From Candidatus Aphodenecus pullistercoris (GTDB lineage: Bacteria; Spirochaetota; Spirochaetia; Sphaerochaetales; Sphaerochaetaceae): a stretch of DNA of 35,293 bases. Made by a program: the position numbers and the translations under genes. The stretch spans positions 1-35,293 of the forward strand of contig JADIMU010000006.1 in the NCBI GenBank assembly GCA_017694495.1. Direction: 5' to 3'. Positions 6,311-11,675 of this stretch are shown in pieces (within the stretch, counting starts at the first letter, position 1; each line of letters begins with the position of its first letter). Under the pieces are notes generated by a model. The model was not told the origin of the DNA. It worked only from the letters and a program-made list of their open reading frames with translations, and ran no database searches.

Positions 6311-6383
6311 GCTGACTTAGCTCAGTTGGTAGAGCAAAGGACTGAAAATCCTTGTGTCCCTGGTTCGATTCCTGGAGTCAGCA
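6311..6383 (+). tRNA. tRNA-Phe (GAA)
   Basis: A 73-nt cloverleaf: acceptor arms GCTGACT and AGTCAGC pair perfectly, the D-arm is GCTCAGTTGGTAGAGC, the anticodon loop is CTGAAAA with anticodon GAA inside stem AAGGA/TCCTT, and the T-loop is TTCGATT. The discriminator base is A. CCA is not encoded (the next bases are ATC), so it must be added by a CCA-adding enzyme. A rho-independent terminator follows 16 nt later. Confidence 0.97.
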
Positions 6384-6398
6384 ATCCAACTAAAATGG

Positions 6399-6435
6399 TA
6401 ACTCCTTGTAAGTCAAGGAGTTATTTCATTTTTAG
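6399..6435 (+). terminator. Rho-independent terminator of tRNA-Phe
   Basis: A 10-bp stem TAACTCCTTG / CAAGGAGTTA (6399-6408 and 6414-6423) with a 5-nt loop, followed by a T-rich tail (TTTCATTTTT). Confidence 0.85.
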
Positions 6436-6449
6436 GGCCTAAAAAAACC

Positions 6450-6462
6450 CTCATGTACCGCA
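6450..6462 (+). repeat. Left 13-bp direct repeat of the cls start region
   Basis: CTCATGTACCGCA, identical to 10170-10182 where it contains the ATG of the cardiolipin synthase gene. Both copies are preceded, 10 nt upstream, by GGC(C)TAAA, so part of the cls -10 region is duplicated as well. The left copy sits just after the tRNA-Phe terminator and has no matching gene behind it. The two copies bracket the AT-richer island, so this may be a target duplication, an attachment-site half or a displaced cls 5' end. Confidence 0.55.
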
Positions 6463-6490
6463 ATTCATGCTGTTTATTGGTAAGCGTAAT

Positions 6491-6497
6491 TTAAAAA
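6491..6497 (+). repeat. Left target-site duplication of the IS
   Basis: TTAAAAA directly outside the left terminal repeat; the same 7 bp recur at 8290-8296 outside the right one. The last two bases could equally be counted as part of the terminal repeats. Confidence 0.8.
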
Positions 6498-6525
6498 CCT
6501 GCATTCCCATTTCTAAACTAGGATT
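6498..6525 (+). repeat. Left terminal inverted repeat of the IS
   Basis: Starts CCTGCATTCCCATTTCTA and is the exact reverse complement of 8262-8289 over 28 bp. Confidence 0.93.
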
Positions 6526-6594
6526 GGATCTTAATAAAACCGTATCTCAGTAGTAATTTCTTATAGAATTTAGAAATAATAGCTCAATCAGTTG

Positions 6595-6630
6595 TTGTCA
6601 TTTCATTTTTAATAGTTTATACTATAAACT
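6595..6630 (+). promoter_or_regulatory. Transposase promoter with overlapping palindrome
   Basis: TTGTCA (6595-6600), a 17-nt spacer and TATACT (6618-6623) make a near-consensus sigma-70 promoter. The -10 ends 7 nt before the transposase ATG, predicting a leaderless mRNA. An inverted repeat AGTTTATA-C-TATAAACT (6614-6630) covers the -10 and the start-site region and could be an operator, for example for the transposase itself. Confidence 0.65.
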
Positions 6631-8274
6631 ATGAAGAAGAATGAGCCGAAGATCACGATCGTGACCAGGAAGAACGGCAGGAAATATGCATACAGGGCTG
6701 TCGAGCATAGATGGAATGCTGAGAAGAAGTCATGCGAGACGAAGCTTGAATACTACGGCACCGTTGATGATGAGGGGAATGTGCTCCCTAAGAGGATGAA
6801 GCTGGTGAAGGCGGCAGTAGTCGAGAGCGGAGATGATGATCTGCACCTGCTCTCGAGCAAGAGAATCGGTCTGACCAGAGCCATGTGGAGGATCGCCGAG
6901 GAGATCGGGCTTGCGGAATGCCTGAAGGCTGTATTCCCGCAGACGTGGAGGACCATACTCTCGCTGGCGATGTACCATGCCTCCACCGGGAGCAATGCTG
7001 CATATCTATTCCCTGAATGGCATGAGAGCCACGAGCTTCCGATCCACGATGATGATCTCTCCAGCCAGGATATCTCGCGCCTTTATTCAGGGATGGATGA
7101 GGCAAGGCGGAAGGAGTTCCTGCTTGGCTGGAGGAAGAAGGCGGCCACCGGCAACGCCTGCTTCCATGACATAACATCAATATCATCATATTCCAAAGAC
7201 AATGAGCTTATTGAGTATGGGTACAACAGGGATGGAGAGGATCTGCCGCAGGTGAACCTCGGGATGATAGTGGACAGCGGGAACAGGCTGCCGATCTATT
7301 ACAGGGTGCATGATGGCTCGATTCCCGACGTATCCACGCTGCAGTCGGTGCTAAGGGAGGGATACAGCTTCAACTACAGCAGGCTGACATTCGTGATGGA
7401 CAAAGGGTTCTTCTCGTCATCTAACGTCAGCGCCATGTATGGTCATGGCTACCATTTCATTATGGCGATGACGCTTGCATCGGCAAAGACAAGGGATGCT
7501 ATGGATGAGGTCAATGGAAGGATAAGGCATCCTAGGAACATAATAAGGACGGACAGCGGCCAGCTTCTGTATGCAATGGGGGTGAAGAGCCACTGGAATG
7601 CGGAGGGGATGCACAGGGAGTGCATGATACACGTTTACGCCCAGTCCGTAGCTGACATAAACCTCCGCACATCCAGCCTGGACATAAAGCTTGCTGAATG
7701 CTGTCAGGAGCTGAATGCAGAGAAGTTCCTCAATTCCCATGCGGCTCTTTATGCACGCTATTTCACAGAAGTGCAGGATCCGGATGGAAACAGGAGATAT
7801 GAATACAATGATGAGCACATAAAGGAGCAGCGGGAAACGAAGTATGCGGGCCTCTTCGCCATTGTCACAGACAGGATGGACCTTTCCAGCACGGATGTGA
7901 TGAACATATACAGGGACAAGGACGGAGTCGAGAAGATATTCAATGACATAAAGAATGTCCAGGACTGCAGGAGGCTCTCGGTGCATACCAGACAGGCGAT
8001 GGATGGGCGCGTGTTCGTCGTCTTCATCGCCTCGATACTGATGGCGGAGATAAGGCAGAGGCTGAGGGACTGCAAGGACAGGGATGAGATGACGATGGAT
8101 CTTGTGAGGAAGACCCTCGATAAGGTCTCGGTCTCATATGTGAAGAGAGATGGCAAGCGGAAGCATGTGCAGCTGTATTCCAATCTCACAGGTAAGCAGA
8201 CGCTTCTTCTATCCTCGTTGTTGAAGGTCAAGCCAGCAGAGGTGGAGAAGACTTTGAAGGAAATCCTAGTTTAG
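6631..8274 (+). CDS. DDE transposase, IS1634/IS4-like
   Basis: 547 residues. The N terminus is basic and DNA-binding-like (KNGRKYAYRAVEHRWN). The candidate catalytic triad is Asp180 in CFHDITSISSYS, Asp257 in FVMDKGFFSSSN and Glu434 in YRDKDGVEKIFNDIK; the last matches the Y-(2)-R-(3)-E-(6)-K pattern of IS4-type enzymes. The length and the D-D-large-insertion-E layout suit IS1634. It is the only gene of the element and appears intact. Codon use is more AT-rich than in the neighbouring chromosomal genes. The TAG stop is inside the right terminal repeat. Confidence 0.92.
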   Translation: MKKNEPKITIVTRKNGRKYAYRAVEHRWNAEKKSCETKLEYYGTVDDEGNVLPKRMKLVKAAVVESGDDDLHLLSSKRIGLTRAMWRIAEEIGLAECLKAVFPQTWRTILSLAMYHASTGSNAAYLFPEWHESHELPIHDDDLSSQDISRLYSGMDEARRKEFLLGWRKKAATGNACFHDITSISSYSKDNELIEYGYNRDGEDLPQVNLGMIVDSGNRLPIYYRVHDGSIPDVSTLQSVLREGYSFNYSRLTFVMDKGFFSSSNVSAMYGHGYHFIMAMTLASAKTRDAMDEVNGRIRHPRNIIRTDSGQLLYAMGVKSHWNAEGMHRECMIHVYAQSVADINLRTSSLDIKLAECCQELNAEKFLNSHAALYARYFTEVQDPDGNRRYEYNDEHIKEQRETKYAGLFAIVTDRMDLSSTDVMNIYRDKDGVEKIFNDIKNVQDCRRLSVHTRQAMDGRVFVVFIASILMAEIRQRLRDCKDRDEMTMDLVRKTLDKVSVSYVKRDGKRKHVQLYSNLTGKQTLLLSSLLKVKPAEVEKTLKEILV

Positions 8275-8289
8275 AAATGGGAATGCAGG
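8262..8289 (+). repeat. Right terminal inverted repeat of the IS
   Basis: Exact reverse complement of 6498-6525; it contains the transposase stop codon. Confidence 0.93.
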
Positions 8290-8296
8290 TTAAAAA
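8290..8296 (+). repeat. Right target-site duplication of the IS
   Basis: TTAAAAA, matching 6491-6497. Confidence 0.8.
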
Positions 8297-8593
8297 GACA
8301 GGTACCACTGAGATCATTTGTTGCTTTCAGCTTTGAGCCGCAATGCCAGCTGGAAATCGTTGCCTGAGAAGGCAGCGTCCACGCTCAAGGCCAAAGTTCC
8401 TGAGCTGTGGTACGGAGCACATTGCACACTGTCTACCTTAAGAGATCTCTATGCGGTGAAGGAAAAGCTTCCTGAACTGAGTCCAGATTGTTCGGTAAAA
8501 GCCATTCCCTGCCTCCTAAAGAGGCAACTGGGATTACCCAGCTAGAGGGAAGCTCCATCTATGACTGAATGCAGTTTAGATGGAGAGGCTTCA
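8297..8593. other. Stretch without a recognised gene between IS and ATPase gene
   Basis: About 300 bp with one short plus-strand reading frame (8318-8545, 75 codons, non-ATG start) whose product resembles nothing I recognise. One minus-strand frame through the same bases reads GTLALSVDAAFSGNDFQLAL, which looks like outer-membrane beta-strand sequence, but it lacks a start and is interrupted by stops. Either could be a gene remnant. An inverted repeat at 8553-8585 lies at the right end. Confidence 0.4.
8553..8585 (-). terminator. Hairpin downstream of the AAA ATPase gene (weak terminator)
   Basis: CTCCATCT (8553-8560) and AGATGGAG (8578-8585) form an 8-bp perfect inverted repeat with a 17-nt loop, just past the minus-strand stop at 8594. 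There is no T tract on either side, so intrinsic termination is doubtful. Confidence 0.3.
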
Positions 8594-9952
8594 CTACGAC
8601 CCGAGCAAAGATGTCATGTATAATGGCAGGAAAACTATTCCGTCCTCTTCTTTCATCATACCGGGGTGAAGGACATATGGGATGAATGTCTGTTCCCTGT
8701 ACTTTGACATGAACTTCTTCAGTGATGAGAGTGTATAGTTTTTCCCGGACTTGACCTCAATTGGCGAGATGTTGTGCCTGTTCGTAATTCGGCTCTTGGC
8801 AATCAGAAAATCTATCTCCATTCGAGATTCGGCATCCGTCCGTGAGCTTGAAGAAAAGAAGAACAGCTTGTGAGCTGATGCGACAAGCATTTGGGCTACA
8901 ATGTTCTCAACTATCATGCCGAGGTTCATTTCCAGCTTGTCGAAGAGTATCTTTTTGTAGAGTTCCTCAGAGATGATCCTCTCTTCATTGAATGCATGGC
9001 TTATGAGGAGACCTGTATCTGACATATAGCATTTGAACATGGATTTGTCCCTGTTGAGATTGAGTCCGATTGTCGGTTCTGTGGAAGCGAATGCGACATT
9101 TACGATCTTCGCATCCACAAGCCAGAAGAATGCATCCTCATAATCCCTTGAGCGTGCACCCTCATTGAGGGAAGAAATGCTGAATCGTCTTTCATGTCGT
9201 TGCAATTCTGGTGGAATCGCATCGAAAATGCTTGTCACTTTTGAGGCTGCCCTCCCTGCGTATTTTGTGATATCCCTCCGATACAGCGCTAGAATGTCCC
9301 TCTTGATCAGGTCGACTCTTGTGAAGTTTCTCGTCTCTACATATTCCTTCACAGCCTGAGGCATTCCTCCGATTGCCAAATACTGTCTGAAAAGGTCCAT
9401 GGCCTTTCTGTGCAAGGCGTCGGGTAGCGGCTTTCTGGATTCATATGAGGACTTGATGAGACCCATCATCGAGTTTTCCCCAAGTGCCCAGAGGAACTCC
9501 TCGAAATCCATAGGAAGAAGTTCGATGCTCCTCTCTTCGGATGGAATCAGAATGTCTTTTGTGTTTTCTTTGATTCCCATCAGGAATCCAGTCTCCACAT
9601 AGTGATAGCGACCGTCTGCTACGAGGTACTTTATCGCAGAGCGTGCTCTCGGAAAGAGCTGGACCTCATCGAAGATGATCAGCGATTCGCCAACATACAA
9701 TTCTGTATTGTAGTAGGTGGACAGGTAAAGAAATAGGGAATCCAGATCGTCAAGATAGTCGTTGAACAGGCCTTTCACTTCATCGGGCGCCTGCTGAAAA
9801 TCAATCAATATGTACGATTTGTACTCAGCTTTTGCGAATTCCTCTGCTGAATAGCTTTTCCCGACCCTTCGCATGCCTTCTATCAGCAGTGCTGTCCTTC
9901 CGGCCCATTCCTTTTTCCAGGCCAACATCTTGTCAAGGATCTTCCTTTTCAT
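8594..9952 (-). CDS. AAA_14/DUF4143 ATP-binding protein with nuclease-like C terminus
   Basis: 452 residues from MKRKILDKML; this ATG was preferred over one five codons upstream because GGAGGAGGT lies directly before it. Walker A is GMRRVGKS (26-33), the usual GxRRxGKS of the AAA_14 family, and Walker B is LIIFDE (91-96). The middle is the helical DUF4143-type region. The C-terminal part has a PD-(D/E)xK-like core: EIDFLI (Asp about 381) and PIEVKSGKN (Glu399, Lys401). Proteins of this architecture are common in bacterial accessory DNA; their biological role is poorly known, with stress-, defence- and mobile-element-related functions suggested. Codon use is AT-richer than the surroundings. 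Three 19-bp direct repeats lie directly upstream. Confidence 0.85.
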   Translation of the reverse strand: MKRKILDKMLAWKKEWAGRTALLIEGMRRVGKSYSAEEFAKAEYKSYILIDFQQAPDEVKGLFNDYLDDLDSLFLYLSTYYNTELYVGESLIIFDEVQLFPRARSAIKYLVADGRYHYVETGFLMGIKENTKDILIPSEERSIELLPMDFEEFLWALGENSMMGLIKSSYESRKPLPDALHRKAMDLFRQYLAIGGMPQAVKEYVETRNFTRVDLIKRDILALYRRDITKYAGRAASKVTSIFDAIPPELQRHERRFSISSLNEGARSRDYEDAFFWLVDAKIVNVAFASTEPTIGLNLNRDKSMFKCYMSDTGLLISHAFNEERIISEELYKKILFDKLEMNLGMIVENIVAQMLVASAHKLFFFSSSSRTDAESRMEIDFLIAKSRITNRHNISPIEVKSGKNYTLSSLKKFMSKYREQTFIPYVLHPGMMKEEDGIVFLPLYMTSLLGS

Positions 9953-9980
9953 ACCTCCTCCAAACATCCTATTGGAATTT

Positions 9981-10066
9981 TACACCAAAACATGATTTTG
10001 TATAGCAGGGAAACTACACCAAAACATGATTTTTAAAGTGGCGAAACTACACCAAAACATGATTTT
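9981..10066 (-). repeat. Three direct repeats upstream of the AAA ATPase gene
   Basis: Three exact copies of TACACCAAAACATGATTTT at 9981-9999, 10015-10033 and 10048-10066, with 34- and 33-bp periods (about three helical turns). The two distal copies are also preceded by AAAC. Read toward the gene, the proximal copy runs into TGTAAAAT, which could serve as the -10 of the ATPase gene and ends about 25 nt before its ATG. Equal phasing on one DNA face and overlap with a putative promoter suggest an operator or iteron array, possibly for autoregulation. With about 14-15 bp between units and three copies it is not a CRISPR. Confidence 0.85.
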
Positions 10067-10159
10067 CAGTTTTGTCACCAAACTTGTTTGTGCCAGAGTG
10101 CGTACTTTGTCCAGCCATCATCACACCTGACACATCTTTCCTTTCCTCTCTCCGTCGGC

Positions 10160-10165
10160 TAAACT
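10160..10165 (+). promoter_or_regulatory. -10 box of cls
   Basis: TAAACT ends 7 nt before the cls ATG at 10173, predicting transcription from the start codon; no Shine-Dalgarno is present. No strong -35 was seen. Confidence 0.45.
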
Positions 10166-10169
10166 CTCT

Positions 10170-10182
10170 CTCATGTACCGCA
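10170..10182 (+). repeat. Right 13-bp direct repeat, containing the cls start codon
   Basis: CTCATGTACCGCA, identical to 6450-6462; see the left copy. Confidence 0.55.
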
Positions 10183-11675
10183 TCATCCGCAGAGTGCTGA
10201 TCATCCTGCCTGCCATAGCCCTCGAGGCCCTGTGGATCTGGCTCATCCTCTCCCTGGCCCGACCTCTGAGCGGCGCGATAAATGCGCTCCTCCTGGTCTT
10301 CTCCGTCATCTTCGTCCTCTTCATCGTCATGAAGAGGGACGAGGACAGCTACAAGATCCTCTGGCTCATCGTCATCCTCTGCGCTCCGGTTCCCGGCGCA
10401 CTCCTGTATCTCCTCTTCGGCAACAGGAGGACGACGCGTCCACTGCGCCGCCGTCTGGACGCGAACCCTCTGGCTGTGGCTCAGCAATCGGACTGTGAGG
10501 CCCTCAGTCGGCTCCAGGAAGAGGAGCCCCGTCTTGCCCAGACGGTTTCGCTGCTGAGCCGCACGACAGGCTTTCCCGTCTACAGGAACGTCAGGACGAA
10601 GTACTACCGTCTTGGCGAGGAGGCCCTAGGCGACATGCTCAGCGCCCTCGAGGAGGCCAGGAGCTTCATCTTCATCGAGTACTTCATCATAGAGTCGGGC
10701 TTCATGTGGGACTCGATCGTCTCCATCCTTGAGCGCAAGGCGGAGGAGGGCGTCAAGGTGCGCGTGCTCTACGATGACCTGGGGAGCATCACGACCTTCT
10801 CCGTCGTCGAGGAGGCGAGCCGCCTCTGGGACAAGGGCATCGAGTGCGTGCCATTCAATCCGCTGGTCTTCGTCAAGGGGACCGTCAACTACCGCGACCA
10901 CCGCAAGATGCTCATCGTCGACAACCGTGTAGCCTTCTCTGGAGGGATCAACCTGGCCGACGAGTACATCAACCGCAAGGTGAAGTTTGGCCACTGGAAG
11001 GACATCGCCTTCCGCATCGAGGGGCCTGCCGTGGAGAGCTTCACGAGGATGTTCATGCAATTCTGGAACGCCTTCGCCCGCTCACGTCTGGACGAGTCCT
11101 GCCTCTCCTTCCACGCTGATGGCCCCAAGGGCGACGACGGCCTTGTCATCAGCTGGTACGACTCGCCGCTCTCACCCCACGCCTCGAGCAACGGGCTCTA
11201 CGTCGAGCTCCTCGGCCAGGCTGTGGAGAGGGCATGGTTCTACACCCCCTATCTCATGCCTGGCGAGAAGCTCCTCGACGCCTTCCAGCGTGCTGCAGAG
11301 CGCGGAGTGGACGTCAGGATCATCATGCCAGGCATTCCCGACAAGAAGATCATCTGGCGCATGAGCAAGAGCTTCTATGCCAGCCTCATCTCTTCCGGTG
11401 TGAGGATCTACGAGTACGGCCCCGGCTTCGTCCACGCCAAGGCCTCGATCATTGACGACAGGATATGTACGATCGGTACGGTCAACCTCGACTACCGCTC
11501 GCTCTTCCTCCACTTCGAGAACAACTCGCTCTTCTACCGTGCCTCGGTCATGGACGACCTTGTGAAGGACTACGAGGAGACTCTGAGCCAATGCACTGAA
11601 ATCGCGATGCCGCCACGCGGACTTCTGCGCTGGTTCATCGACGGCGTCCTCAGAATCGTCGCCCCCTTGTGCTAG
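10173..11675 (+). CDS. cls: Cardiolipin synthase (phospholipase D family)
   Basis: 500 residues. Two N-terminal transmembrane segments (about 8-28 and 36-53) and a third hydrophobic stretch (62-82) precede LYLLFGNRR, typical of bacterial Cls. Two HKD motifs follow: NYRDHRKMLIVDN (His243, Lys245, Asp250) and FVHAKASIIDDR (His421, Lys423, Asp428), each trailed by the usual GGINLADEY and GTVNLDYRS. The enzyme condenses two phosphatidylglycerols to cardiolipin at the inner membrane. Length and motif spacing are normal, so it looks intact. It is transcribed as a single gene out of the island boundary, and its stop codon abuts the stop of the convergent gene with no gap. Confidence 0.92.
   Translation: MYRIIRRVLIILPAIALEALWIWLILSLARPLSGAINALLLVFSVIFVLFIVMKRDEDSYKILWLIVILCAPVPGALLYLLFGNRRTTRPLRRRLDANPLAVAQQSDCEALSRLQEEEPRLAQTVSLLSRTTGFPVYRNVRTKYYRLGEEALGDMLSALEEARSFIFIEYFIIESGFMWDSIVSILERKAEEGVKVRVLYDDLGSITTFSVVEEASRLWDKGIECVPFNPLVFVKGTVNYRDHRKMLIVDNRVAFSGGINLADEYINRKVKFGHWKDIAFRIEGPAVESFTRMFMQFWNAFARSRLDESCLSFHADGPKGDDGLVISWYDSPLSPHASSNGLYVELLGQAVERAWFYTPYLMPGEKLLDAFQRAAERGVDVRIIMPGIPDKKIIWRMSKSFYASLISSGVRIYEYGPGFVHAKASIIDDRICTIGTVNLDYRSLFLHFENNSLFYRASVMDDLVKDYEETLSQCTEIAMPPRGLLRWFIDGVLRIVAPLC

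Follow-up and report, generated by a model that had tools for sequence, protein, structure and literature searches.

A PDC-S01-type ATPase gene with a phased upstream repeat array in a spirochete tRNA-Phe hot spot: a candidate single-gene defense system

Main finding

In the stretch of DNA analyzed here (35,293 nucleotides; hereafter, the window), a 3.7-kb interval between a tRNA-Phe gene and a cardiolipin synthase gene (cls) contains a gene for an ATPase of the PADLOC candidate class PDC-S01, preceded by three identical copies of a 19-bp word. Arrays of this kind, with a 33-bp period, words private to each gene and non-conserved linkers, lie upstream of most homologous genes across the family, and the similarity of the words is statistically linked to a predicted winged-helix region of the protein. 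It appears reasonably likely that the ATPase and its own phased operator constitute a single-gene candidate defense system, which would be the main functional unit of the interval.

In the sections of the two publications that deal with it, PDC-S01 is presented as a single-gene candidate in which an AAA ATPase is fused to a PD-(D/E)XK domain and as the fourth most common defense across prokaryotes (PMC12988326), as well as the individual locus encountered most often in a survey of the rumen (PMC13356809), its role in defense being that of a candidate not validated by experiment (PMC12988326, PMC13356809). These descriptions of PDC-S01 do not mention an upstream repeat array, which is the new part here. 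We found no earlier report of such arrays in the open-access literature; one may exist outside it.

The ATPase and its array

The gene and the array ahead of it (positions 9981-10066) comprise the following features:

8594-9952, minus strand: AAA_14-DUF4143 ATPase, 452 aa, PADLOC PDC-S01; start MKRKI set at 9952 (9967 according to the ORF finder)
9491-9895, minus strand: AAA_14 domain, residues 20-154, with P-loop GxRRVGKS
9023-9250, minus strand: predicted winged-helix region, about residues 235-310 (AlphaFold2 model and similarity scan)
8624-8923, minus strand: part resembling PD-(D/E)XK nucleases, in which D381, E399 and K401 are conserved (invariant columns and model)
9981-9999, minus strand: repeat copy 1, nearest the gene, AAAATCATGTTTTGGTGTA in the coding sense
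10015-10033, minus strand: repeat copy 2, 34 bp further out
10048-10066, minus strand: repeat copy 3, another 33 bp out

The PADLOC candidate PDC-S01 model, PDLC04786, matches the full-length protein (E 4.7e-113), and the fusion that characterizes this class is present, with an AAA_14 and a DUF4143 domain and with D381, E399 and K401 invariant in two alignments, as in PD-(D/E)XK nucleases. In the AlphaFold2 model (pLDDT 87.7), helices and a beta hairpin are located between the AAA_14 and nuclease parts, at about residues 235-310, and are predicted to form a winged helix. Structure predictions covered sequences from the window and from viral contigs. The best PDB matches of the ATPase model in a Foldseek search were Orc1/Cdc6 with DNA (2v1u, E 5e-6), followed by Avs3, at TM-scores of about 0.3; a viral fold search yielded generic AAA+ matches only.

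Orc1/Cdc6 initiators bind repeated origin boxes and share with the ATPase an AAA+ domain plus a winged helix (predicted in the ATPase), but the low TM-score points to a likeness of domains, not of the whole chain, the ATPase has a nuclease-like domain, and there is no evidence of an origin function for it. Given that no PDB sequence matched below E 0.01 and that the TM-scores are about 0.3, the assignment of the ATPase as such an initiator was rejected. A related possibility is that the repeats are not an operator, but rather a site that is recognized during mobility, replication or cleavage, comparable to an origin or a homing site, as could be suggested by the Orc1/Cdc6-like fold matches and by the presence of many ATPase copies per genome, some of them broken. 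We consider this quite unlikely because arrays were found upstream of 53 of 63 genes but downstream of only 5 of the 63, and because AAAATCATGTTTTGGTGTA has no match with two or fewer mismatches elsewhere in the genome. In viral contigs, this word turns up twice, each time as a lone chance match within a coding sequence that is unrelated, and forms no arrays.

A 33-bp period across the family

We assembled 102 homologs from spirochetes, from plasmids of other phyla and from viral contigs (where a single-sequence DUF4143 search found none, and an alignment search did), and scanned their upstream DNA for the best repeat lag. This lag was 32-34 bp in 72 of the 102 homologs, and either 32-34 or 64-68 bp in 83, compared with 60 and 118 (6%), respectively, of 2040 shuffles; among control genes or ORFs, 5 of 179 had such a lag. 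The mean lag profile over the homologs peaks only at 33 and 66. About one in five homologs (about 19 of 102) have no clear array. After clustering at 70% protein identity, which only partly corrects for kinship among the sequences, an array was present in 41 of 51 clusters. The number of copies ranges from two to six, with three in 41 of 58 strong arrays, and the spacing is 33 bp in 95 of 136 intervals.

Plasmid-borne arrays were found in Bacteroidota, Bacillota, Actinomycetota, Pseudomonadota and Chlamydiota, and upstream of a haloarchaeal homolog, from Haloferax larsenii (L238, upstream of 405), which is located beside a Cas3'' gene, units of the form TACAAC...GTTGT follow each other at a spacing of exactly 33 bp. 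In two alphaproteobacterial homologs (L240, L241), TCCAAT/TCCCA words recur at a distance of about 22 bp, two turns rather than three. Among 15 more distant AAA/DUF4143 genes, there were no 33-bp arrays and a single weak 32-bp case. An array of a different type, with TCGACTATAATCGA repeated at 39 bp, lies upstream of the distant homologs L156 and L157.

Adjacent copies are 0.84-0.96 identical in the core and only about 0.32-0.54 identical, near background, in the linker, the conserved part of the unit comprising 13-19 of 33 nt. Because the core is conserved and the linker is near background, we interpret the array as a set of protein sites on one face of the DNA, not as a repeat that is transcribed as a whole. 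The alternative, that the repeats act as RNA, is brought to mind by ToxIN-like (type III) antitoxins, tandem repeats upstream of a toxin gene, given that here, too, two to six 33-nt repeats directly precede a potentially toxic gene. Type III antitoxin repeats are conserved along their length, whereas only the core is conserved in these arrays, and TATAAT-like boxes occur within the linkers or just past the last copy, so that the array often would not be transcribed whole; a role as an antitoxin RNA is, in our assessment, very unlikely.

The words themselves are private. Within one genome, the words of paralogs are alike in 1 of 91 pairs, and a word is conserved mainly above 70% protein identity; globally, word and protein identity show no significant correlation (Spearman 0.04; Mantel test, 171 of 999), and a signal emerges only at the local level. 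The genome from which the window comes (2.1 Mb) contains 11 matches to the ATPase, on contigs C3, C16, C28, C44, C55, C60 and C62, some of which are partial or split, so that the copies evidently turn over; the words of the intact copies with arrays differ. In an exploratory scan along the protein, in which local similarity was compared with word similarity while controlling for overall identity, and the range of pairs was varied, word similarity was best predicted by residues 296-310 and, more loosely, by residues 251-315, in the predicted winged helix. The scan maximum was reached in 1 of 200 label permutations. The effect is modest (partial correlation 0.19-0.29), and when the pairs are limited to those of more than 50% identity, the peak shifts to residues 231-245, which are still in or next to the winged-helix region.

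These observations also bear on the possibility that the repeats bind a different regulator, encoded by the host or by an element, for which there is a precedent in RptR, a repressor that acts on three direct repeats in a defense island of E. coli (R-M/DarTG; PMC12255303). In the case of RptR, a small, separate regulator acts through a single conserved site, TAGCTA (PMC12255303), whereas here each gene has its own word, which is likely to be bound by the ATPase itself. A separate regulator would be needed for each of the paralogs, given that their words differ, and the variation of the words tracks the predicted winged-helix region of the ATPase itself, so that we regard binding by another regulator as unlikely and favor an operator that is read by the ATPase.

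A composite interval in a tRNA-Phe defense hot spot

The 3.7-kb interval is best explained as composite accessory DNA within a tRNA-Phe defense hot spot, rather than as a single element of which one end was duplicated. In this interval, an IS1634-family element is followed by a stretch without homology, the ATPase gene on the minus strand and then cls on the plus strand:

6311-6383, plus strand: tRNA-Phe (GAA); in the genus, a hot spot adjoins its 3' side
6400-6423, plus strand: terminator-like hairpin 3' of tRNA-Phe, AACTCCTTG...CAAGGAGTT
6450-6462, plus strand: left-hand copy of the 13-mer CTCATGTACCGCA, which probably matches by chance
6498-8289, plus strand: IS1634-family insertion sequence with TTAAAAA flanks at 6491-6497 and 8290-8296
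6631-8274, plus strand: IS1634-family DDE transposase, 547 aa (NF033559, E 8.8e-73; PF01609)
8297-8593, no strand: stretch without a homolog among the loci examined
10170-10182, plus strand: right-hand copy of the 13-mer, with the cls ATG inside it
10173-11675, plus strand: cls, nearest match 60% identical (L031)

The insertion sequence ends in perfect 30-bp inverted repeats (6496-6525 and 8262-8291) and, because of these ends and the TTAAAAA on both sides, is recognized as a simple insertion of its own. The combination of an IS1634 transposase matching NF033559 with perfect terminal inverted repeats is that of other IS1634-family elements, among which this one, present in one copy in the assembly, is not unusual.

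The gene block upstream of the interval is conserved up to a peptidase gene in six relatives from the genus, and in four of these six, tRNA-Phe directly follows the peptidase gene, as it does in the window; similar hairpins also follow tRNA-Phe in relatives. The DNA 3' of tRNA-Phe is different in every genus relative compared. In one of these (G001), it encodes the BREX genes brxA, brxC and pglX; in another (G009), AbiEii plus the methylase and specificity genes of a type I system; and in the remaining relatives, other genes. PADLOC gave no match for the ORFs that follow tRNA-Phe in G012 and G014. Thus, the suggestion of the sequence-only reading that accessory DNA had accumulated beside a tRNA gene at an integration hot spot is borne out, and the site is a real defense hot spot in the genus. 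A tRNA-integrated genomic island, which would carry a second tRNA 3' end or att site and an integrase, was rejected for the window: the 3' end of the tRNA is not duplicated anywhere in the window, and no integrase gene was seen in the interval, the ORFs of which encode the transposase and the ATPase. The acceptor stem of this tRNA-Phe is GCTGACT/AGTCAGC, compared to GCCGCTT/AGGCGGC in most genus relatives, with a nearly identical body.

The same reading held that the ancestral order was tRNA-Phe, terminator and cls, and that one element had inserted at the cls start, leaving a 13-bp duplication. The features that led to this proposal are all present: CTCATGTACCGCA occurs at both edges, with the cls ATG inside the second copy; CTAAA lies 11 bp upstream of each copy (24 bp at 79% when the match is extended by this region); the interval is AT-richer, with a GC content of about 0.31-0.57 compared to about 0.61 in the flanks; and it contains the IS and the AAA/DUF4143 gene and adjoins tRNA-Phe. 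In addition, a 13-mer is shared by the two pre-chosen flanks (107 and 300 bp) in only 3 of 5000 shuffles, although these flanks were picked because they share it. The perfect IS ends with their TTAAAAA flanks and the three-copy repeat array had escaped this reading. That the match exceeds chance is not confirmed, given that the window contains 57 maximal exact direct repeats of at least 13 bp (mean of 14 in dinucleotide shuffles) and that a third copy of CTCATGTACCGCA is found elsewhere in the same genome, inside an unrelated coding sequence. Nor is one element that duplicated the cls start supported: the IS, flanked by direct repeats of its own, was inserted separately. When the tRNA-Phe/cls junction was compared among genus relatives, neither cls nor the 13-mer was found after tRNA-Phe, so that the proposed ancestral order found no support, and no true empty site was found among these relatives; in the next 527 bp after tRNA-Phe of 10 relatives, the best 13-mer match has 5-6 mismatches. 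To our knowledge, none of the common element families produces a 13-bp duplication, which also counts against this scenario. What had been taken for the scar of an insertion probably arose as a match by chance, and an insertion that duplicated the cls start is highly improbable.

Rather than marking an edge of the island, cls is itself probably accessory, as judged from the comparison of gene content and order: there is no full-length ortholog in the 15 other genomes of the genus, and the Tgl gene, which follows cls here, has different neighbors in relatives. The closest cls found, 60% identical, comes from a Spirochaetaceae MAG (L031); its start, MSRIIRRILVIIPA, compared to MYRIIRRVLIILPA in the window, backs the start codon. 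Within the genus, G009 has a 51% identical fragment about 31 kb from its tRNA-Phe, and the other best matches, at 38-42% identity, look like a second cls that is also present on another contig of this genome. An exact search of viral contigs for the cls start gave no match. A -10-like TAAACT (10160-10173) precedes the cls ATG by about 8 bp, and no ribosome site is clearly recognizable, so cls may be leaderless.

Proposed mode of action and implications

For the candidate system, we infer binding, repression and a trigger. The ATPase would most likely bind its own private 19-bp words via the predicted winged helix, and the bound ATPases, with the words about three helical turns apart at the promoter, would lie next to one another along a single face of the DNA. 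Binding would control the synthesis of the ATPase itself and perhaps keep the nuclease in an inactive assembly, a state that infection would disturb. Extended to PDC-S01 ATPases across Bacteria and Archaea, the proposal would portray them as self-addressed defense switches, in which a fast-changing winged helix reads a private promoter array, paralogs coexist without cross-talk, and release arms the nuclease; this generalization is tentative and may well not hold.

The arrays hint at the control of a common but unexplained defense gene. Because the DNA that each protein should bind stands before its gene, they would offer a direct handle on the mechanism of PDC-S01, and a means to find and sort its members. 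Furthermore, they supply naturally varying pairs of protein and DNA in which the evolution of binding specificity can be studied.
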